The position numbers were made by a program, and so were the translations under genes. Under the pieces are notes generated by a model. The model did not search any database and was not told the origin of the DNA. It saw nothing but the letters and a program-made list of their open reading frames with translations. 64,000 nt of DNA from Flavobacteriales bacterium (lineage in GTDB: Bacteria; Bacteroidota; Bacteroidia; CAIKAF01), in the NCBI GenBank assembly GCA_022402535.1, contig JAKRSD010000015.1:17908-81907 (forward strand). Direction: 5' to 3'. Shown here piece after piece: positions 1,878-12,577 of the stretch (positions are counted from its first letter, which is position 1; each line of letters starts with the position of its first letter).

Positions 1878-3224
1878 TTATTGCTCGCCGGTAACGATAA
1901 TATTGTCAATTTCCCACGTGGTAGTCTGGTTGGTAGCGGTACCTCCTTCATAGAGCCAGCCTAAACGAACGGTGCCGTCAAACGCACTGATGTCGATGAT
2001 GCCCGAACTGGCAAAAGGAGCAAATCCCGGATTTTGAGTCGGTAACGCATTAAAGCTGAGTTCGGTCCAGGTGGCGGTCCAGGGTGTGGCGCCTCCGTCG
2101 TAATTGTTTGATATAAACAGACGCAGTAAGGCTCCGTTGTGGAAACCGCCTGTTCCTCTGAATTCCAGTTTTTCCTGGGTGGTTTGGGTCAGGTCAATTT
2201 CGGGTGTAATCAGCCACGATTTTACGCTTGACTGATTGGTTCCGAAAGCAGAACATTCAGCCCAGGGGTTGGTGCCGTTGGCTCCGGCGGTTCCGCTTTT
2301 CCATTTTACGGTGCCCACTTCAGATGAATTCACCCAACCCGGTAAGGTAATAATGACATTATCTACCAATCCGTCAAATTTTTCCTCAAAGAGCGTAACG
2401 CTTCCGCCGCCACCGCCGCCGCTTCCGCAACGGGGTTGGTCAAACACCACATCGTACAGATCGCGGATGTATAATTGTTTGGTGGTACCGAACACGCTGT
2501 ACACCACGGTGAGCGTTCCTTTGCCCGAAGGCAGAATAGCATTGGCAAAGGTGGCGTATCCGCTGTTGCGCAGGATGATGGTGTTTCCGTTGCAATCCTG
2601 CACGGTTACGTTTTTGGTGAGCTGTAATGTGCCGTCGGCATAGGTAAAGCCGGTATCGGCCGGAGAAAACTGTACGTTTTCGAGTTTAATGAGGCGGTTT
2701 TGGTAGGCATCGTTCAGTTCGGGAATCGTTACCGTAATGGGTACGATTTCGTTGTTCAGCGAACCTTTAATGATGTGTCGGGTAATCAGGGAAGACGGTA
2801 AGGCATCCACTTCGGTAGGGGAACCCGCCGTGGCGGCTCCGCCCAGCTGAATCATATTGCCGTAAGAACCGAGGAATAATCCTTTGGTCTGTACATAAAT
2901 TTTACGGCCTATCATGTAGCTGTTGGCCAGTCCCGTGGCATCCAAACGGATGGCGATACCGGCCGTGGCATCCTGAAATACTAAGGTTTTGTAGAAATTA
3001 CCCGATTTGTCGTCGGCAATGATTACCCCCGCCAACAGAATAGAATCCTGAATTTCAACGCTGGTACCGGTGTACAATTGCTTAAACTCGGCAATGGTCA
3101 TGGTAGGCGTAAGATTGGGATCGGTTCCGTCGGTAGGCGGGGCATCGTATTTGGTTTTGATACATGCGGTAAGCAGGGTTACCGAGAATAGCATGAATGC
3201 GAGAATTCTGCTGCTGTTTTTCAT
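1878..3224 (-). CDS. Lipoprotein with OB-fold (DUF5689-like) and choice-of-anchor J domains
   Basis: A predicted outer-membrane lipoprotein. I start at the ATG at 3224 because it gives a compact lipoprotein signal ending LLTAC; a start at 3239 adds five residues. About residues 40-270 resemble the DUF5689/OB-like domain (IAEFKQLY, GVIIADDKSGNFYKTLVFQD, NRLIKLENVQF, PSGKGTLTVVYS, LYIRDLYDV), related to OB folds of secreted nucleases. A six-glycine linker leads to a cleaved-adhesin/choice-of-anchor J beta-sandwich (FEEKFDG, LPGWVN, KSWLITPEIDL, WEIDNI). It lies 41 bp downstream of a TonB receptor gene, like a SusD-type partner though it is not SusD. I infer it captures a ligand, plausibly nucleic acid, at the cell surface. 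Confidence 0.8.
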   Translation of the reverse strand: MKNSSRILAFMLFSVTLLTACIKTKYDAPPTDGTDPNLTPTMTIAEFKQLYTGTSVEIQDSILLAGVIIADDKSGNFYKTLVFQDATAGIAIRLDATGLANSYMIGRKIYVQTKGLFLGSYGNMIQLGGAATAGSPTEVDALPSSLITRHIIKGSLNNEIVPITVTIPELNDAYQNRLIKLENVQFSPADTGFTYADGTLQLTKNVTVQDCNGNTIILRNSGYATFANAILPSGKGTLTVVYSVFGTTKQLYIRDLYDVVFDQPRCGSGGGGGGSVTLFEEKFDGLVDNVIITLPGWVNSSEVGTVKWKSGTAGANGTNPWAECSAFGTNQSSVKSWLITPEIDLTQTTQEKLEFRGTGGFHNGALLRLFISNNYDGGATPWTATWTELSFNALPTQNPGFAPFASSGIIDISAFDGTVRLGWLYEGGTATNQTTTWEIDNIIVTGEQ

Positions 3225-3265
3225 ATGAAGAGATTGCATAGTATTTCTAAATTTTAAAATCTGTT

Positions 3266-6052
3266 TTACATTCTGAATGCCACGTTGAAAAAGGCATTGA
3301 TACCGAAGTTATAAAAATATTTGGGTGGAAATTTGTTCGGGTTCCGGTCGTCAAAATCAAAACGAAGCTGCTCAAATCCGGAAGAAATGAATTTGCGGTT
3401 GTTGGTCATGTTGTTCACGCTGAGTGAAAACACGAGGAACATGGGGCGTTTGATGGTTTTGAAAGTTTTGTCGAGTTTCCAGGAATAGCCTCCGAAAAGG
3501 TCCATGGTAAACTGTCCGGGCAGGCGCTCCTGATCAATGGTCTGGGCATATTGTTCGCTTTCGGTGTCCATCCCTTCCACAGCCGATTCGGTGCGGCGGA
3601 TGGGGTTGGTTTCAATCCAAATCCAATCAAAGTAGTTGAAGTTAACCCGCACAAACCAAAACTTAGGCGAGTTGTACGAAAGGCCTATGGTATTCGCCCA
3701 TTGCGGTCCCTGTGCCACGTTATAGTTTTTCAGATAAACGGTCTGGTTTTGGGCCAGCACTTCGTTGGTGTTATCCTGTGTAAGGGTAACTATGGGTCTG
3801 TCGGTATATTGAGAACGGCCAATACCCACGGCGGCATTCATGCCGAATCCTTTGTAAACTTTTACGTCGGCTCCGAATTCTCCCCCGTAATGTCTGCGGT
3901 CCAGATTGGAAAGCGACATATTTACGAAGGCATTGAAATCGTCGTGGAAGAAGCTTTTGGTTTCGATTCCATCCCAAAACTGGGTATAATATCCCGTGGC
4001 TTTAAAGCGGATGCGGGGCGAGTTCCAGATGTAACCGCCTTCTACGGACACAATTTTTTCGGAAGTCAGGTTTTCGTTAATGGTATTACGGGTTCTGGGC
4101 GAAAGGAACACATTGTTCACATACGGGGCGCGGGTGGTAAAGGCTCCGTTGGCATACACATAATGCCTTCCGTTGATTTTGTAGGTCAATCCGCCTTTTA
4201 CCCCGGGATTGATGAACATATTCTTTTCGGACTCGCCGAATGAATTGTCGGGGAATAAACCCACCCGGGTAAGTCCGTTTCTCCAGAACGAAGTAACCGA
4301 AATGCGTGCGGCCAGATAAAAATCTACCTTCTTGTACGAGAACTGGGCCTGCATCCAAGCCTGGGCTTTGTGCAGTTTAAACTGATACATGGTTCCGTAT
4401 TTGTCGCCCTCTTTCACAAGGCGGTTCGGATTGTCGAGGTCGTTTTGCAGGGAGTTGGTATCGAGCGGAATTCCGATTTGCCCGAAGCGGTTGTAATCCA
4501 CATAAAAATCGCCGCCGAGCAGGTCTTTCACGCGGTTAAAGTTTTCGGTCTGCTGGTATTGATAAATCAACCCGGCGGTAATGGAAATATGATCGTTAAA
4601 CGTGTGATTCAGCGTGCTGTTGAATCCGAAATCTTTCATGGTCTGCACTCGTTCGCCCAAAATGTAGTTGGAACGTTTTCCGGTTACGTTGTTTCCGGCA
4701 ATTCCGTTTACGTTGTTAATGGTTTCGGTGTTGTTGGCATTGGCCTCGTACATGGCATCCCAATTCAGCTGAATAAGGTTGGGGTCGGCCAGGATGGCTT
4801 CGCGAACGGCAAAAGCCAGGGCACTGTCTGTTTGAAAGCTGGGCAGATTCCGGTAATAATCGGGAGCGGGGTTTTGTCCGAAATACCAGTCAATGGCCGA
4901 GTTGGCCGTTTCGCCGATTTGGAAAGAAGCCGTGGTAGCTAAAGTGGTTTTTGTGGAAGGTTTCCACTCATGCGACAGCATAAATACGGGCTGAAAACTG
5001 TCGAATACGCGGGAGTTTCTTTTTTTGCCGTTCTGATAGCCCCAGTTGGGATTGTAGAAAGGCGTACCGGCCAGTTCGTACATTTCGGCAATGGCAGGGG
5101 CCATTTTTCCGCGGCGGGTAGGGGTGCCAAAGGTGGTGAAACTGAGCAGGTGTTTGCCCATTTTTTTGGAAACGCCCAGGTAATAGGCCTTGCTGTCGTA
5201 AAACGTACCGGGAACGTATCCTTCGCCGGCCGCTCTCCACGAAGCCGACACCGAAAGTGCCCATCCGTTCTTCTGCATACCGGTGCTGTAAGTTCCCATC
5301 AATCGGTGCGTGTAAGAACGATTTCCTACGGCATACGAAAGGCTCAGCTGTTTGCGCTGACGGGCTGCCACGATATCCATATTGGTGGCTCCTCCGATTT
5401 CCCCGAAGGAAAAGGTGTTCAGTTCCAAACCGTAAGAGTTATCGCGGAAGCGGAATACATCGTTCAACCCGCCCCAACGGCTCCAATATACTTCGCCGTT
5501 TTCAATGTTATTCATGGGCACTCCGTTCAGCAATACGCCAAAATTATCGGGGTCGTATCCGCGGGTGCGGAAACGGGCCTGTCCGAAGTTGAAGGAAGCG
5601 GTGCTTACATACACATCTCTGGACGCTGAGAGTACGCCTGAAATATTGTTATCGCCGGAACTTCCGGCAGCCGATTCGCTGTCGTTACCGGCTACAATGG
5701 GTACCAAATCATCGGAGTTGGTTACGCCGGGTTCATAGCTCTTTTTGATGCTGAGGACGCCCAAGTCGTTCACATCGGCATTTACGGTAATTTCTTTGCT
5801 GAACTTCTGGTATCCGTTGGCTATAATTTCCAGGGTGTATGTACCCGCGGGAATATTGTCGAATAAAAAGGAACCGTCGGGTCCGGAAGCGGTTTCGGTT
5901 TCCGAGGGCGTTAAGCTGAGTAAAGCAAATCGAACGGGAATTTTAGTTTCTTCTTCACTGATGATACCGGTAATCCGGCCTGTCTGGGCTTGTGTTTTTG
6001 CTGCGGTAATGGTAGTCAACAACACAAGAATAAACCCTTTAAAAAATCGCAT
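3266..6052 (-). CDS. TonB-dependent outer-membrane receptor (CarboxypepD_reg-like N-terminus)
   Basis: A 928-residue TonB-dependent transporter. The signal peptide is residues 1-22 (FILVLLTTITAAKTQA). A carboxypeptidase-regulatory-like beta-sandwich follows (about 25-100: GRITGIISEEETKIPV, GSFLFDNIPAGTYTLEI), then a plug domain (about 150-250: RFRTRGYDPDNFGVLLNGVP, GEVYWSRWGGLNDV) and a beta-barrel ending in an FRM-type C-terminus. Such receptors import large substrates with energy from TonB-ExbBD. The leftward promoter at 6073-6103 and the coupled OB-fold lipoprotein gene, with two secreted nuclease genes divergent, suggest uptake of nucleic-acid fragments; the substrate cannot be read from the sequence. 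Confidence 0.9.
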   Translation of the reverse strand: MRFFKGFILVLLTTITAAKTQAQTGRITGIISEEETKIPVRFALLSLTPSETETASGPDGSFLFDNIPAGTYTLEIIANGYQKFSKEITVNADVNDLGVLSIKKSYEPGVTNSDDLVPIVAGNDSESAAGSSGDNNISGVLSASRDVYVSTASFNFGQARFRTRGYDPDNFGVLLNGVPMNNIENGEVYWSRWGGLNDVFRFRDNSYGLELNTFSFGEIGGATNMDIVAARQRKQLSLSYAVGNRSYTHRLMGTYSTGMQKNGWALSVSASWRAAGEGYVPGTFYDSKAYYLGVSKKMGKHLLSFTTFGTPTRRGKMAPAIAEMYELAGTPFYNPNWGYQNGKKRNSRVFDSFQPVFMLSHEWKPSTKTTLATTASFQIGETANSAIDWYFGQNPAPDYYRNLPSFQTDSALAFAVREAILADPNLIQLNWDAMYEANANNTETINNVNGIAGNNVTGKRSNYILGERVQTMKDFGFNSTLNHTFNDHISITAGLIYQYQQTENFNRVKDLLGGDFYVDYNRFGQIGIPLDTNSLQNDLDNPNRLVKEGDKYGTMYQFKLHKAQAWMQAQFSYKKVDFYLAARISVTSFWRNGLTRVGLFPDNSFGESEKNMFINPGVKGGLTYKINGRHYVYANGAFTTRAPYVNNVFLSPRTRNTINENLTSEKIVSVEGGYIWNSPRIRFKATGYYTQFWDGIETKSFFHDDFNAFVNMSLSNLDRRHYGGEFGADVKVYKGFGMNAAVGIGRSQYTDRPIVTLTQDNTNEVLAQNQTVYLKNYNVAQGPQWANTIGLSYNSPKFWFVRVNFNYFDWIWIETNPIRRTESAVEGMDTESEQYAQTIDQERLPGQFTMDLFGGYSWKLDKTFKTIKRPMFLVFSLSVNNMTNNRKFISSGFEQLRFDFDDRNPNKFPPKYFYNFGINAFFNVAFRM

Positions 6053-6072
6053 GTATAGTGTATTTCGGGGGT

Positions 6073-6103
6073 CAAAAGTACGGGCATTTTGGTCACGTAC
6101 AAA
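6073..6103 (-). promoter_or_regulatory. Leftward Bacteroidota promoter for the TonB receptor
   Basis: On the minus strand this reads TTTG (6103-6100), a 19-bp spacer and TACTTTTG (6080-6073), the -33/-7 consensus of Bacteroidota sigma-ABfr promoters. It lies about 20 bp before the receptor start at 6052. It is arranged divergently from the promoter at 6153-6184. Confidence 0.75.
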
Positions 6104-6152
6104 CTTTTGACGGAATTTTCCTGAGGAATTAACCCTAAGTTAATTTAATGAC

Positions 6153-6184
6153 TTTGTGGACGGAGACATTTATCTTTACCTTTG
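6153..6184 (+). promoter_or_regulatory. Rightward Bacteroidota promoter for the nuclease genes
   Basis: TTTG at 6153-6156, a 20-bp spacer and TACCTTTG at 6177-6184. The predicted transcript begins near 6191, which supports the ATG at 6201 over the upstream GTG at 6156 lying inside the promoter. Confidence 0.75.
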
Positions 6185-6200
6185 CCGCAGATTTTTTGTA

Positions 6201-7253
6201 ATGCGCTCTATTCAACGAATTTTTTTCGCACTCCTGTTCCCCGTTTTACTCCCCGTTATTTTGCAGGCACAGGAAAAGCAATATCATGTGGTTTCTGCCG
6301 GATTTTATAATCTTGAAAATTTATACGATACGCTTAACGACCCAAACCGCAATGATGAAGAATTTTTACCCGAAGGCGATAAACGGTACACGGGCAAAAT
6401 ATACTTAGAAAAACTGGACAGACTGGCGGAAGTAATTTCGAAACTGGCCGTGGAAACCACACCCGACGGTCCGGCTTTGTTGGGTGTAGCTGAAATTGAA
6501 AATCGTTCGGTTTTGAAAGACTTAACGGCTCATCCGCTGTTGGCTTCGCGGGGTTACCGCATTTCGCATTTTGATTCGCCCGATATGCGTGGCGTAGATG
6601 TGGGTTTGCTGTACAATCCCAAATATTTTGTGCCGATTGCTTCCCATGCCATCAATCCGCAGATTCAGAATGAATCGGGCAATTATATTAAAACCCGTGA
6701 TATTCTTTGGGTGGAAGGATATCTGATGGGCGAAAAAATTCATGTATTTGTGGGACACTGGCCCTCGCGAAGAGGAGGAGAAGAAGCCAGTTCGCCGCTC
6801 AGGCAGCAGGCCGCAGCCCGTTGCAAACATACTATTGACAGCATCAAGGTGGCCGAACCCGGTGCTAAAGCCCTTATCATGGGCGACCTGAATGATGATC
6901 CCCTGAGCCCCAGCATAAAAAAAGTGCTGAATGCTGTGGGTAAAACCGAAAAACTTACGGAAGACCACATGTTCAATCCGTTTGAACCCTTCTATAAAAA
7001 AGGAATCGGCACACTGGCCTGGCAGGATTCCTGGAATTTATTTGACCAGGTGATTTTTACGCCTTCATGGGTAACTACCCCCCAAGAGGGTTGGTTTTTC
7101 AGCAAAGCGGAAGTATTTAACCGACCTTTTCTTACCCAAAAAACGGGCAACTTTAAAGGGTATCCGCTCAGAACCTATGTAGGCAATGAGTATCAGGGGG
7201 GATACAGCGACCACTTCCCGGTTTTGGTATATTTGCTCCGTGAAAAGAAGTAA
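6201..7253 (+). CDS. Secreted endonuclease/exonuclease/phosphatase-family protein
   Basis: A 350-residue exported enzyme of the EEP (DNase I-like) superfamily. The ATG at 6201 gives a clean signal peptide (IQRIFFALLFPVLLPVILQA before Q). Catalytic-type motifs are in order: FYNLENLYD, VAEIENRSVLKDL, GHWPSRRGGE, MGDLNDDP and the terminal SDHFPVL carrying the conserved Asp-His pair. Family members are Mg-dependent nucleases or phosphodiesterases. It heads a rightward unit with an endonuclease I gene 6 bp downstream, divergent from a TonB receptor. Extracellular DNA or RNA breakdown for phosphorus or nucleosides is the most likely role. It has no T9SS sorting domain, so it may stay in the periplasm. 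Confidence 0.88.
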   Translation: MRSIQRIFFALLFPVLLPVILQAQEKQYHVVSAGFYNLENLYDTLNDPNRNDEEFLPEGDKRYTGKIYLEKLDRLAEVISKLAVETTPDGPALLGVAEIENRSVLKDLTAHPLLASRGYRISHFDSPDMRGVDVGLLYNPKYFVPIASHAINPQIQNESGNYIKTRDILWVEGYLMGEKIHVFVGHWPSRRGGEEASSPLRQQAAARCKHTIDSIKVAEPGAKALIMGDLNDDPLSPSIKKVLNAVGKTEKLTEDHMFNPFEPFYKKGIGTLAWQDSWNLFDQVIFTPSWVTTPQEGWFFSKAEVFNRPFLTQKTGNFKGYPLRTYVGNEYQGGYSDHFPVLVYLLREKK

Positions 7254-7259
7254 TATATT

Positions 7260-8687
7260 ATGATCAGAGTCGCCGCATTTTCCTTTTTGTTTTTAGTCTC
7301 CTTGCATTTGGCGGCTCAGCAACCGGCTTCGCAGCCTACTAATTTGTCTTTTTCTAATGTAAAACCGTACGGTTTTATTCTTTCGTTTACCCCTTCTCAG
7401 GCAGACGGGTATCTCGTGGTACGTTCGCTTTCTCCTATTTCGTTTGTTCCCATTGATGGTATAGAATATCAAAAAGGGCAGGGGATTGCCCCCGGCATGA
7501 AAGTGTTTTCCATGTCGTCCACTTCGGCCATTTCCCTGCGGGAAACCTTGGAAGGCACCACCTACTACTTTGCCATTTACGCCTATAACGGCGCCGGAGA
7601 GCAAATCGACTATTTTAATGTGAATCCGCTGAGCGGTTCCGTCACCACGCCCTTCAGTAATCCCAATTCGTATTATACCAACCTCAGCGGGAATTCCCCT
7701 ACTTTTTTAAATGATTTAAAAACCCGTTTGAACAACGGAAGGGTATTTCAATCCTATACTCCCGGCTTTTTAAACACGGTAACCAAGAATATTTACATCC
7801 GCGATACGGTGGATGGGAAGGAAGTCATCAATTGCCAATACACGGGAGAAACCAAGGTATTTACCCCTCCGTTTTTCTGGAGCAGTTCATCGGGCGAATA
7901 TACCCGGGAACACTGTCTGCCCAAAAGTTGGATGTTTACGGGCGGAAATACCGACAATCAGGACGGGGCGGATTATCATAACCTGATTCCGGCCAATCAT
8001 GAAAAAGCCAACGGGAAACGCTCCAATGTGCCTTACGGTATTGTGCAAAATGTAACGTTTCAATATCTGGAAGGTAAATTGGGAACCAACAGCCAGGGAA
8101 TCACGGTGTATGAACCCCGGAATTCCATAAAAGGCGATGTGGCCCGCAGCCATTTTTATATGATGGTCTGTTATAATAACAACGGTGGGGTTTGGGGGTA
8201 TCAGAGTATGCCTTCGCTGGCGCCCCAGCAAAATCAGGATTTAATGAAAATGTGGCATGAGCAGGACCCGCCCGATGCCTTTGAACGCACCAAACATGAA
8301 TATATATTCAGCCTGCAATACAACCGGAATCCGTTTATCGATTACCCGGAATTGGCGGACTGCATCAACTTTAACAACATGACCCTGTATGCGGGTTGTA
8401 CCATTGGTTTACAAAATGAAGAAAATCCGTTAGTAAGTTCAACAGTATATGTATACCCCAATCCGGTAGCGGAAGGCGAACCCTTTCAGGTGGTTATTTC
8501 CGAAGGAAAAATTCTTACCTCGTATCAGCTAACCGATATACAGGGGCGTATTGTTTTGCAGAAAAATGGGCAGGAAACCGGATTGGTTTCTATTCCCACA
8601 ACCGGTATTGCATCGGGTGTGTACACCCTGCAGTGTCAGTTTCAAGACGGTTCCGTGGCTATTCAAAAATGTATAATACAAGACTAA
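7260..8687 (+). CDS. Endonuclease I-family secreted nuclease with T9SS sorting domain
   Basis: A 475-residue protein. The signal peptide is about residues 1-19 (FSFLFLVSLHLAA before QQ). Residues 25-115 look like a fibronectin-III/Ig-like module (ATNLSFSNVKPYGFILSFTP-type opening and TTYYFAIYAYNGAG). About residues 150-375 are the endonuclease I (EndA/NucM) domain with REHCLPKSWM and DYHNLIPANHEKANGKRSN, the latter holding the His and Asn of the beta-beta-alpha-metal nuclease core. Residues 400-475 are a T9SS sorting domain (VYVYPNPVAEGEPF ... GIASGVYTLQCQF). It should therefore be secreted across the outer membrane and cleave extracellular DNA non-specifically. It follows the EEP nuclease by 6 bp and precedes another T9SS protein by 11 bp. 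Confidence 0.9.
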   Translation: MIRVAAFSFLFLVSLHLAAQQPASQPTNLSFSNVKPYGFILSFTPSQADGYLVVRSLSPISFVPIDGIEYQKGQGIAPGMKVFSMSSTSAISLRETLEGTTYYFAIYAYNGAGEQIDYFNVNPLSGSVTTPFSNPNSYYTNLSGNSPTFLNDLKTRLNNGRVFQSYTPGFLNTVTKNIYIRDTVDGKEVINCQYTGETKVFTPPFFWSSSSGEYTREHCLPKSWMFTGGNTDNQDGADYHNLIPANHEKANGKRSNVPYGIVQNVTFQYLEGKLGTNSQGITVYEPRNSIKGDVARSHFYMMVCYNNNGGVWGYQSMPSLAPQQNQDLMKMWHEQDPPDAFERTKHEYIFSLQYNRNPFIDYPELADCINFNNMTLYAGCTIGLQNEENPLVSSTVYVYPNPVAEGEPFQVVISEGKILTSYQLTDIQGRIVLQKNGQETGLVSIPTTGIASGVYTLQCQFQDGSVAIQKCIIQD

Positions 8688-8698
8688 AATAAGCAAAA

Positions 8699-10639
8699 AT
8701 GAAAAAGACGTTTACCCTCGCATCCCTGGTTTTGGCTGGCGCCATAGCTTCACATGCACAGATTTCCCTGACGGGAAGCAGTCCTTCCTATACACAGGAC
8801 TTTAATACTTTAGCTTCTTCGGGTACTACCAACACTGCCGTGCCAGCAGGATGGGCTTTTGCAGAAGTAGGCAATAACGCCAACGGAGAATACCGCGCTG
8901 CCGACGGAGCAGGAAACACCGGAGATACTTACAGTTATGGAGCCGCCTCGGCATCAGACCGCGCTTTTGGCGGATTGGCATCCAACAACCTTACGGCCAA
9001 TATCGGAGCCTCTTTTGAAAACAATACCGGACAGGAAATCAACTCTTTTACGCTTTCTTATTTTGGTGAGCAATGGAGAAGAGGGAACACCACCGCCGGA
9101 AAACAAGATTCGTTGATGTTTGCCTACAGCACCAATGCTACTTCGTTAACCGATAACGGGGCTACCTGGACTCCGGTAAACGCACTCAGCTTTTTTTCCA
9201 TCAACACGCCTGCTACAGCTTCTGCGCTTGACGGAAACCTTTCCGGAAATCGTCAGAACTTAAACCAAACGGTTTCGATTTCCTTACAAAGCGGTTCTAA
9301 GCTTTGGATTCGCTGGACCGATATCAATATTTTTGGATCGGATGACGGATTGGCTATTGATGACCTGGAAATTAATTTCACCACGCAAGGCGGCGGCACA
9401 CCGGATACCTTGGTTCGTTTCAGCCCGGTTGCCGGTTCTGTGGCCGAAAATGCAGGAACGTATAACATCAACGTGGCATACAACCCCACCTCACAAACTA
9501 CTTCTTTCACGGCTCAGGTAGTGTTGAAATCAGGTAATGCGGCCGATATAGGAAACTACACCACACAAACCGCCACGTTCACTGCCGGTGCTAATTCAAC
9601 TACGGTACCTGTAACCATTACCGATAATGCCCTGGTAGATGGCAACAAAACGTTTGTATTTGCTTTACGTAATCCTTCTGCCGGAATGCTAAACGGAAAC
9701 GATTCACTTTTCACCCTTACGGTTACAGATAACGATGCGCCGGTTCTAGGTCCTCCGGTATACACCATTGCTCAGGTTCGTGGCGCCAACGCCAACGGAG
9801 GTCCTGATTCCTTGAACGTAACCTGCGAATTGCGCGGAACCGTTTATGGCATCAATTATCGTCCCGGCGGATTGGAATTTACCATTAACGACGGAACGGC
9901 CGGAATCAGCGTGTATGCTCCCGTAAATGCCAATACATTCGGATATACCGTTACGGAAGGTGACAGTATACGTGTTTGGGGTGATGTAATCACATTCCGC
10001 GGATTGGCCCAGATAGCCTTTTTGGATACCATCATTCCTGCCGGTCAGGGAAATCTCAGAAATCCGGCCTGGGTGAGCGCACTGAATGAAAGTACGGAGA
10101 GTTCGTTAATCCGTTTAAACAACTGTACGCTGGTAAATCCATCTCAGTGGACACCCGGAGGAAACTCCTTCAACGTGGATTGTAACTGTACAGGTGGAAC
10201 CTTTAAATTGAGAATTCATTCGGCTACCACGGCCATTAATGCCAATGCTCCCGTGGGTAATTTTGATGTAATCGGTATCGGCAGTCAGTTTGCCACCACC
10301 ACTTCGGCTCCTTTTAACGACGGTTATCAGATTATTCCCCGCAAACTGGAAGATATCCTTTACGGAGGAAGCATCAGCGAAAACGATGCCTCTGCGGCAT
10401 TGAATATTTACCCGAATCCATCGAACGGAATTTTCACCGTGGCTTTTGATTCAAAAGAAAGCGGAATGGCCGAAATTTCCATGATGGATATTCACGGCAA
10501 AACTATTCGTATCACAAACCGCGCTCTTACTGCCGGCATGAATTATATCAGCATGGACGAAAATGTAGCGTCCGGTGTATATATGATTCATATTTCGGTG
10601 AATGGGGTTCGCGCCGTTCAACGGGTAATGATTAAATAA
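8699..10639 (+). CDS. T9SS-secreted protein with Calx-beta and OB-fold-like domains
   Basis: A 646-residue secreted protein. After the signal peptide (to about residue 20, ASHAQ) come an ExeM/NucH-like beta-sandwich (about 22-228: YTQDFNTLASSG, PAGWAFAEVGNN, LAIDDLEINF), a Calx-beta domain (about 235-345: VRFSPVAGSVAENAGTYNI, GNKTFVFALRNPSA, LTVTDNDAP), a DUF5689/OB-like domain (about 355-555: VTCELRGTVYGINY, FTINDGTAGISVYAP, GDVITFRGLAQI) and a sorting domain (ALNIYPNPSNGIF ... VASGVYMIHI). These accessory domains commonly flank the catalytic domain of extracellular nucleases, but no nuclease domain is visible here. A nucleic-acid-binding surface or extracellular protein serving the adjacent nucleases is my inference. 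Confidence 0.82.
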   Translation: MKKTFTLASLVLAGAIASHAQISLTGSSPSYTQDFNTLASSGTTNTAVPAGWAFAEVGNNANGEYRAADGAGNTGDTYSYGAASASDRAFGGLASNNLTANIGASFENNTGQEINSFTLSYFGEQWRRGNTTAGKQDSLMFAYSTNATSLTDNGATWTPVNALSFFSINTPATASALDGNLSGNRQNLNQTVSISLQSGSKLWIRWTDINIFGSDDGLAIDDLEINFTTQGGGTPDTLVRFSPVAGSVAENAGTYNINVAYNPTSQTTSFTAQVVLKSGNAADIGNYTTQTATFTAGANSTTVPVTITDNALVDGNKTFVFALRNPSAGMLNGNDSLFTLTVTDNDAPVLGPPVYTIAQVRGANANGGPDSLNVTCELRGTVYGINYRPGGLEFTINDGTAGISVYAPVNANTFGYTVTEGDSIRVWGDVITFRGLAQIAFLDTIIPAGQGNLRNPAWVSALNESTESSLIRLNNCTLVNPSQWTPGGNSFNVDCNCTGGTFKLRIHSATTAINANAPVGNFDVIGIGSQFATTTSAPFNDGYQIIPRKLEDILYGGSISENDASAALNIYPNPSNGIFTVAFDSKESGMAEISMMDIHGKTIRITNRALTAGMNYISMDENVASGVYMIHISVNGVRAVQRVMIK

Positions 10640-10658
10640 ACGTCTTTTTCATACTTTG

Positions 10659-10687
10659 AAAAGCCTCGCCTTGTGCGGGGCTTTTTT
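10659..10687 (+). terminator. Intrinsic terminator after the nuclease operon
   Basis: AAGCCTCGC pairs with GCGGGGCTT (one T-G wobble) around a short loop and is followed by a run of seven T. It lies 20 bp after the stop of the Calx-beta protein gene and closes the rightward three-gene unit. Confidence 0.85.
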
Positions 10688-10733
10688 TATGTGATTTATC
10701 TTCACAATGGGTACAAACATGTAAGTTTAACCC

Positions 10734-11519
10734 ATGGATTTTTTGTTCCGTATTTTTCCGTTTACCCGCAAAGAAGTAAAAGAACTTCCGCTAAAACCCA
10801 TTGCCATTACCGTGGTAACGGCTTTTTCGCTTATCGGTATCCGTTATTTTTCGGGTTCGCATCGCATAGGCGAATACATGAGTTTGTGGCAAAGCCTGGG
10901 TATTGCCGGCTTGGCCGATCAACTGGAATATGCCACGAACCGGCATCCCGATGCACAACTTTGGGATTTGGTGTATTGGGCCTCGGTTTCTTTTTGCTTT
11001 TATGTGTTGCTTCCGGTATTGGTGATAAAATTGATTTTCAGGGAAAATATTTCGGATTACGGCTTAAAAATCAAAGGCATGTTGTTTGGCGCCAAAGGCT
11101 ATCTGTTGATGGCCACGGTGATGTTTCCGGTGGTGGTGATGGTTTCTTTTTCGCCGGAGTTTGTACACACCTATCCTTTTTATCGCTTCACTTCGCCCGA
11201 TAAATTATTTCCGCAGTTTTTCATCTGGGAAGTGTTTTACATCCTGCAGTTTTTTTCGCTTGAATTTTTCTTCCGGGGGTTTATGGTATTGGGCCTCAAA
11301 AAACACATGGGCGCCTATTCCATCCTCGCCATGACGGTACCCTATTGCATGATCCATTTCAGCAAACCGTTGCCTGAATGCATCGGTTCCATATTTGCCG
11401 GACTGATTTTAGGCGCCATGAGTTACCGCACGGGATCGGTATGGCTGGGCGCGGCGTTGCATGTGTTTGTGGCGCTTACCATGGATTTGCTCAGCCTTTG
11501 GCACCGAGGTATTATTTAG
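10734..11519 (+). CDS. CPBP/Abi-family intramembrane protein, catalytic motifs degenerate
   Basis: A 261-residue polytopic membrane protein with about six hydrophobic segments and a C-terminal CPBP (CAAX protease and bacteriocin-processing, Rce1-like) region. The hallmark EExxxR box reads LEFFFR, so the first Glu, which is catalytic in characterised Rce1, is Leu. The second box keeps His (CMIHFSKP). The third, normally HxxxN, reads HVFVA, so the Asn is missing. The family ranges from prenyl-protein peptidases to uncharacterised membrane proteins. With two of four active-site positions altered this copy may not be a peptidase. It stands alone between a terminator and a convergent phosphatase gene. 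Confidence 0.75.
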   Translation: MDFLFRIFPFTRKEVKELPLKPIAITVVTAFSLIGIRYFSGSHRIGEYMSLWQSLGIAGLADQLEYATNRHPDAQLWDLVYWASVSFCFYVLLPVLVIKLIFRENISDYGLKIKGMLFGAKGYLLMATVMFPVVVMVSFSPEFVHTYPFYRFTSPDKLFPQFFIWEVFYILQFFSLEFFFRGFMVLGLKKHMGAYSILAMTVPYCMIHFSKPLPECIGSIFAGLILGAMSYRTGSVWLGAALHVFVALTMDLLSLWHRGII

Positions 11520-11548
11520 CCCTAATATTCTTTAAAAAAGGATTGCAT

Positions 11549-12577
11549 TTATCGAAAGGTCAGCTCATGGGCCTGAATCGTTCTGCGGATTCTGACCGTG
11601 TTCTGCACATCACGGATTTCGGCTACAATGCTGTCGGGATAAATATGCAGCAAGCCAAAGTGATTATCCATAACAGGTCCTTCAATACGATTTTTATTGG
11701 GCGTGGCAAACAGCCAGGTAGAGGATAGGCCCGAAGCCGTAACATCATATAGAGGATACATATCCGAAGGATGAATTTTGGAAATTTCGGCATAATGCAC
11801 GTCGCCCGTTAAAAATAACACCCTTTCGGCGCGTGTTTTTTTAATCAGGTTAATGAAACGTTGCTGTTCATGAGGAAAATTGGCCCACGCTTCGTATCCG
11901 TTATATTCAATGCCAAATTGCGAACCCGAACCGATAATGCGCCAGTGGGCAGGCTGTTTGAGCTGTTCTTCGAGCCATTGCCATTGGGCCTTACCCAGCA
12001 GGGTTTTGGAGGTGTCTTTATGGGGAACATAATCGGGCCGGTATGGATACTTTTCTCCCTTTTTCAAAAATCCGGTAAACCGTTTCAGGTTGTCGCGAAA
12101 GGTGCGGTTATCCAACAAAATAATCTGTATGATTTTGCCTCCCGTTTCATACCGGTACGAGGTGTAAATGCCTTCTCTTTTTCGGCGTTCCGAGTGTTCC
12201 GGTTCTTTAAAAAATTCCAGAAAAATTTCTTTCGATTCTTTTTTGAACGGGTAATGTTTTCCGGCATCATTCCGCCCATAATCATGATCGTCCCAAGTCG
12301 CAATTACGGGCACCTGAGCAGTCATTTTCATATAATTTGGATTTTGGGCCAGCTTTTCATATTTACTCCGCAACACGTTCATATTTCGGGTATCTCCGTA
12401 AATATTATCGCCCAAAAACAAAAACAGATCGGGATTACATTCGGCAATGGTGGAAAAAACCGGCAGCGGATGGCTTTGCCTGGCGCAGGAACCGAATGCC
12501 ACACGAAAAGGCGCATGTTGTGCCAAAGTATTTATTGCTATAACACAAAGTGTGATGATGTTTAGTATGTTTTTCAT
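11549..12577 (-). CDS. PhoD-like metallophosphatase (alkaline phosphatase D family)
   Basis: A 342-residue secreted metallophosphoesterase. The signal peptide is residues 1-19 (ITLCVIAINTLA before Q). PhoD-type motifs run in order: RVAFGSCARQ, LFLGDNIYGD, IATWDDHDYGRNDAG, IQIILLDNRTFRD, IGSGSQFGIEYNG, LFLTGDVHYAEIS. These supply the usual Asp/His/Asn metal ligands. PhoD enzymes hydrolyse phosphate mono- or diesters outside the cytoplasm and often serve phosphate scavenging, which would fit the secreted nucleases upstream. The gene overlaps the upstream lipoprotein gene by 4 bp, indicating translational coupling, and converges with the CPBP gene. Confidence 0.88.
   Translation of the reverse strand: MKNILNIITLCVIAINTLAQHAPFRVAFGSCARQSHPLPVFSTIAECNPDLFLFLGDNIYGDTRNMNVLRSKYEKLAQNPNYMKMTAQVPVIATWDDHDYGRNDAGKHYPFKKESKEIFLEFFKEPEHSERRKREGIYTSYRYETGGKIIQIILLDNRTFRDNLKRFTGFLKKGEKYPYRPDYVPHKDTSKTLLGKAQWQWLEEQLKQPAHWRIIGSGSQFGIEYNGYEAWANFPHEQQRFINLIKKTRAERVLFLTGDVHYAEISKIHPSDMYPLYDVTASGLSSTWLFATPNKNRIEGPVMDNHFGLLHIYPDSIVAEIRDVQNTVRIRRTIQAHELTFR

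Follow-up and report, generated by a model that had tools for sequence, protein, structure and literature searches.

A conserved TonB receptor, DUF5689 lipoprotein and EEP nuclease locus of Bacteroidota as a candidate outer-membrane DNA importer

We analysed a stretch of 64,000 nucleotides from a Flavobacteriales bacterium (assembly GCA_022402535.1, contig JAKRSD010000015.1, positions 17,908 to 81,907 of the forward strand), which is called the window here, and in it a locus made up of a TonB-dependent receptor, a lipoprotein, two nucleases and a Calx-beta protein. All five open reading frames (ORFs) are intact and lie within the first 11 kb of the window, where the genes of the lipoprotein and the receptor face the other three divergently. 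Five genes in this divergent layout had been reported in a preliminary description of the DNA, and both its coordinates and its family calls were found to be correct. The genes are:

1878-3239, minus strand: lipoprotein with DUF5689 (3.7e-67) and choice-of-anchor J domains, matched over its full length by NF052645
3266-6052, minus strand: TonB-dependent outer-membrane receptor with CarboxypepD_reg, Plug and barrel
6201-7253 (ORF 6156-7253), plus strand: EEP-family nuclease (PF19580, 1.8e-109)
7260-8687, plus strand: endonuclease I (PF04231, 4.7e-34) with fn3 and a type IX sorting tail
8699-10639, plus strand: protein with Calx-beta, a partial DUF5689, a sub-threshold OB-fold and a type IX tail (Pfam, NCBIfam)

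The real start of the EEP gene is probably the ATG at 6201. The only two DUF5689 matches of the entire genome both fall inside the locus, one in the lipoprotein and the other in the Calx-beta protein, and the genome also encodes comEC, dprA and a DUF1343 gene.

When 392 genomes of the phylum were searched with NF052645 at E <= 1e-20, 66 were matched and 65 of these were examined, G146 being left out because it matched only in choice-of-anchor J. In one genome (G265, locus L064) the contig breaks off next to the receptor, and this genome was scored as not linked; L189 and L191, whose gene calls are unreliable, were excluded from the tree and the rates. The receptor adjoins the lipoprotein in 61 of the 65 genomes, and 43 of them have an EEP nuclease in linkage with the receptor (42 divergent and one in the same direction), which represent 26 of 30 genera. 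In a clustering of neighbours over 81 loci, every other cluster occurred in at most 22 loci. Consistent association with partners other than nucleases had been named beforehand as what would speak against a role in nucleic-acid uptake, but apart from the lipoprotein nothing other than the EEP nuclease is conserved with the receptor. This linkage survives rearrangement, as it is seen in divergent, EEP-first and EEP-last arrangements. In family f12 all three genes lie on one strand, in the order EEP-receptor-lipoprotein (L233 and L234) or receptor-lipoprotein-EEP (L092), and in G304 and G391, whose lipoprotein is a stray one, a divergent EEP-receptor pair is retained elsewhere (L227 and L228). 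In a 59-row tree of EEPs, all 38 linked EEPs fell in one 45-row clade with a support of 95/94; seven unlinked EEPs nest inside this clade, and the second EEP of the window's own genome (L194) and the EEPs of distant families lie outside it.

The EEP of the window scored 366 bits against PF19580, the cut-off being 27. The columns that are invariant among 28 EEP sequences include E99, H187, D230, N232, D338 and H339, which we take to be a DNase I-type active site. Neither PF18962 nor TIGR04183 matched the window's EEP in Pfam and NCBIfam, that is, the type IX sorting domain is absent, and all 60 receptor-linked EEPs are likewise without a type IX tail and end close to the catalytic motif; in 59 of the 60 the SDHxP motif starts 14-27 residues before the end, and in the remaining one a variant of it lies close to the C-terminus. 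Read by eye, the linked EEPs start with a hydrophobic, signal-peptide-like stretch, preceded in some by a longer predicted start; at least two resemble lipoproteins. Because the linked EEPs have no type IX tail, the EEP is probably periplasmic. Thus, where two secreted nucleases had been described, this can be kept for endonuclease I, which has a type IX tail, but not for the EEP, which has no tail for extracellular export.

Endonuclease I carries REHCLP and an H-N motif, and PF18962 and TIGR04183 were above cut-off on both this enzyme and the Calx-beta protein. Because of these type IX tails the two proteins are probably extracellular. Their genes are additions at the level of the window's family, whereas the receptor, lipoprotein and EEP trio is the wider core. 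The lipoprotein is found in 3 of the 15 other genomes of that family; the five-gene order is repeated in both relatives that are informative (L184 and L186), the third being a contig fragment, and in the wider sample an endonuclease I homologue is present in just 3 of 81 loci, the window counted. Conservation of the five genes as a block therefore holds within the family and beyond it only the trio is kept. In a distant genome (L115), an endonuclease I with DUF5017 and a weak type IX tail (10493-12343) follows a lamin-tail-domain type IX protein (7940-9901); the parts are thus of a similar kind, but no receptor of the window's receptor family was found in the stretch fetched.

The lipoprotein and the receptor could be related to a pair of genes known from natural transformation. 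Markerless deletion of either RA0C_RS04915 or RA0C_RS04920 in Riemerella anatipestifer brought transformation below detection (PMC8459023). RA0C_RS04915 encodes an outer-membrane protein that contains a carboxypeptidase-regulatory domain; in RA0C_RS04920 the domains are DUF5689 and DUF5017 (PMC8459023). The tonBA and tonBB mutants of Riemerella transform poorly (PMC8383284), and it is in print that comEC and tonB are needed for transformation in this genus. The best NCBIfam model of the window's lipoprotein, NF052645 (lipo_M949_1556), matched it over its full length with 239.5 bits, which is under the cut-off of 475, and M949 tags appear in R. anatipestifer papers. Two of the recovered loci, L098 and L099, are the Riemerella locus and have receptors that are 93% identical to each other, and the Pfam domains of the L098 proteins agree with those published for the Riemerella pair (PMC8459023). 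The window's receptor gave 380-386 bits against two Riemerella genomes with the runner-up at 121-125 bits, and when the Riemerella receptor was searched back it gave 383 bits as the sole match in the window's genome. Judged by sequence, the window's receptor and lipoprotein are the orthologues of RA0C_RS04915 and RA0C_RS04920, the receptor because the two are reciprocal best matches with a wide margin. The order of receptor and lipoprotein is the same in Riemerella, the EEP is divergent upstream there as well, and the lipoprotein likewise combines DUF5689 with a second, C-terminal domain. Unlike in Riemerella, the block in the window has the extra endonuclease I and Calx-beta/OB genes and comEC is not adjacent, and identity between the receptors is about 32-33%. 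Gene and tag order point to RA0C_RS04910 as the Riemerella EEP; in the main text of PMC8459023 this gene figures solely as an upstream gene in an expression test.

What happens to DNA at the inner membrane bears on the EEP. ComEC was scanned for domains in 31 cases (29 best-scoring new loci, the window's own genome and Riemerella), and all 31 proteins had Competence and DUF4131 only and no Lactamase_B nuclease domain. DUF4131 with Competence is the usual state of ComEC in Bacteroidetes (PMC6299819), nearly half of ComEC proteins are without the nuclease domain and what becomes of the second strand in that case is stated to be an open question (PMC8579336), and transformable species without this domain exist (PMC12455585). 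Because ComEC has no nuclease domain, the EEP of the trio suggests itself as a candidate for the nuclease that is missing. In its proposed role, to remove the strand that is not translocated before DNA passes the inner membrane, it would resemble EndA, the competence nuclease of Streptococcus pneumoniae (PMC8579336), but it differs in being a PF19580 EEP, probably periplasmic, whose role is a predicted one.

The invariant lipobox Cys26 (47 sequences) agrees with the earlier assignment of the protein at 1878-3239 as an OB-fold lipoprotein as regards the lipoprotein, but support for the OB-fold is weak, as only 4 of 47 members matched PF01336 at E <= 1, the best at 0.0036. In its AlphaFold2 model (predicted local distance difference test, pLDDT, 90.9) the C-terminal half is predicted to be a jelly roll that matched the cleaved-adhesin domain K3 of Kgp with Z 15.1 and a root-mean-square deviation (rmsd) of 2.7 over 152 aligned residues; it also resembles many unrelated ligand-binding domains, and such matches filled the fold lists. 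The AlphaFold2 model of the receptor (pLDDT 88.2) has the plug and beta-barrel of a TonB-dependent transporter. Its top fold match was BtuB (Z 28.1, rmsd 3.1, 499 aligned), with BtuB-BtuG close behind (Z 25.8-26.3), and no SusC entry was among the best 50 matches listed, which excludes nothing. A sequence search for solved relatives of the lipoprotein or the receptor found none. BtuB-BtuG of Bacteroides thetaiotaomicron is likewise a plugged receptor paired with a lipoprotein; its ligand, however, is vitamin B12, and BtuG belongs to another lipoprotein family than the DUF5689 lipoprotein of the window. Isoelectric points (pI) of the EEPs are mostly basic (median 8.65, n=62) and those of the receptors mildly basic (median 8.01, n=85). 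With the receptor profile, intact members of the receptor subfamily scored 845-1271 bits as against at most 310 for other receptors in the same loci, which sets the subfamily apart. Three genera of family f5 have, near the trio, members of another receptor family that is related to this one and scores 275-310 bits (L038:15043-17679, L068:142-2781 and L077:1745-4372); Riemerella too has a related second receptor, in its case unlinked (G439:C1:1569187-1570002). In several families tandem copies of the DUF5689 lipoprotein follow the receptor (L190, L192 and L193).

The explanation that we consider the most probable, though with a good deal of doubt left, is that the locus is a pilus-independent, TonB-driven importer of DNA across the outer membrane, in which a periplasmic EEP trims the DNA for ComEC. 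In such a system, endonuclease I exported by the type IX route would cut DNA outside the cell, where the Calx-beta/OB protein may hold it, and the DUF5689 lipoprotein would hand the DNA to the receptor, whose presumed substrate it is and which would draw it into the periplasm. In that compartment the duplex would be trimmed or stripped of one strand by the EEP, and the nuclease-less ComEC would move the single strand inward, for recombination or as food. The orthology to the Riemerella pair, the conserved linkage of the EEP, its conserved and likely catalytic residues, its want of an export tail and the nuclease-less ComEC all favour an importer. A wider proposition, that Bacteroidota use a dedicated TonB-powered, pilus-independent module in which a co-inherited periplasmic EEP replaces the nuclease domain missing from ComEC, is put forward tentatively, as we think it somewhat less likely to hold than to fail. 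If it is true, a periplasmic EEP would explain how the second strand is removed in Bacteroidota, which, like the crossing of the outer membrane by DNA without pili, is an open question. The locus singles out one gene, the EEP; R. anatipestifer is already known to need the divergent neighbour of this gene for transformation.

Several observations weigh against this importer. The module is patchy, with the lipoprotein in 13 of 80 relatives, the own genome counted. Linkage of the EEP is mostly missing in Flavobacterium-like genomes, and genus g6, with 24 genomes, supplies 17 of the 22 in which the EEP is unlinked; in two g6 genomes that were checked (G206 and G285) an EEP of the linked type is retained elsewhere (L225 and L226). 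The lipoprotein of the window is acidic, with a pI of 4.84 (median 5.21, n=52), which is unlike a typical DNA binder, the receptor model is that of an ordinary plugged transporter in which no special DNA-channel feature was found, and nothing in either model indicates DNA binding. The presence of comEC was rejected as a discriminator, since it was found in 80 of 80 genomes with the locus or without it, and genomes that lack the trio can have the short ComEC too. Adjacency to comEC was rejected as a general signal, comEC being within the fetched flanks in just three of the six g180 loci and in no locus of another genus, which makes it a Riemerella peculiarity. Finally, the Riemerella mutant screen of 3,000 insertions (PMC8459023) did not pick up the EEP. 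For the 1.19-kb EEP gene, 3,000 insertions over about 2.16 Mb give ~1.65 expected hits and a chance of none of ~0.19 if they are uniform. The lipoprotein gene, which is 1.4 kb long and essential by deletion, was without an insertion as well, so the screen says nothing on the EEP. No paper naming the EEP as a transformation gene was found in a literature search, whose reach did not extend to subscription papers and preprints.

The locus had originally been read, by analogy with polysaccharide utilisation loci, as a system to cut, bind and import nucleic acid for scavenging, with the receptor as the importer. That nucleic acid is cut, bound and imported through the receptor is well supported by the conserved nuclease partner and by the requirement for the orthologous pair in Riemerella uptake, but the analogy turned out to be loose. 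As in SusCD-type loci, a TonB receptor, a lipoprotein and hydrolases occur together, but the lipoprotein is of the DUF5689 kind, no SusD or SusC/RagA model matched among ten neighbouring proteins (Pfam, NCBIfam), and the predicted fold of the receptor is that of a standard plugged transporter. Scavenging is only one possible use, as the EEP probably sits in the periplasm and the experiments found for the orthologues deal with natural transformation. As an explanation in its own right, in which nucleases outside and in the periplasm cut DNA or RNA down to oligonucleotides or nucleotides, the receptor imports the pieces and phosphatases free phosphate and nucleosides, scavenging for food is the main rival and one we regard as unlikely but serious; since DNA import can serve both food and transformation, the two may coexist. 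It would account for the two type IX-tailed proteins that join the trio in the window's family, for the PhoD-type phosphatase that adjoins the block (11549-12577) and for the second EEP and type I phosphodiesterase after the lipoprotein in L186. The phosphatase is, however, beside the block in 1 of 81 loci, and no family of nucleotide transport or salvage was among the first 25 recurrent families listed for 134 flanking proteins from 40 loci; none of the families exceeded 6 of the 134. Published phosphate effects point both ways: transformation of R. columbina is reported to be higher under peptone or phosphate restriction (PMC7965970), whereas in R. anatipestifer it drops when phosphate is removed (PMC8383284), and the need for the orthologous pair in Riemerella transformation (PMC8459023) also counts against food as the explanation.

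That the receptor imports some other nutrient, the loss of transformation being indirect and the EEP acting as a phosphatase or phosphodiesterase on that nutrient, would suit the canonical plugged fold predicted for the receptor with BtuB on top, the acidic lipoprotein with its Kgp-adhesin-like jelly roll, and the effect that iron also has on Riemerella transformation (PMC8383284). We think this improbable, as the loss of transformation is complete, that is, below detection, and clean deletion of a SusC/RagA-type TonB-linked gene left transformation unchanged (PMC8459023). Moreover, the conserved partner is a PF19580 protein with DNase I-like invariant residues and an endonuclease I lies in the same block within the window's family. 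Compared to both rivals, the DNA importer remains the reading that we prefer.

In the gap between the receptor and the EEP there are two matches to TTTG-N(17-23)-TAnnTTTG, which we assume to be the Bacteroidetes-type promoter motif:

6073-6103, minus strand: promoter-like site toward the receptor
6153-6184, plus strand: promoter-like site toward the EEP

Across the window the motif was observed 7 times against 4.3 expected, a count that is not significant, but the placement of two outward-pointing matches in the divergent gap is striking. A sigma-70 scan gave no promoter in the gap and 13 across 13 kb against 19.6 expected. The full motif is rarely kept, being found in 4 of 60 gaps on the receptor side and 3 of 60 on the EEP side, the window's gap counted. 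Of the two back-to-back promoters described earlier, what can be retained is thus the pair of outward Bacteroidetes-type motifs, with no sigma-70 match and with the full motif not conserved in relatives. Conservation of the -7 element was also considered and rejected, since it is not special to these gaps (43/60 and 38/60, against 77/126 and 74/126 in the remaining divergent gaps of these loci).

Immediately downstream of the lipoprotein are tandem Fib_succ_major (FISUMP) proteins at 332-1033 and 1046-1744, both on the minus strand, and this pair is absent from the conserved neighbour clusters of the trio. The PhoD-like phosphatase next to the block is encoded on the minus strand, has a pI of 9.2 and was unmatched in the other 80 loci. 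Between it and the Calx-beta gene lies a CPBP/Rce1-like membrane protease (10734-11519, plus strand), whose best NCBIfam match, far under the cut-off, was to a model of the archaeomyxosortase type.

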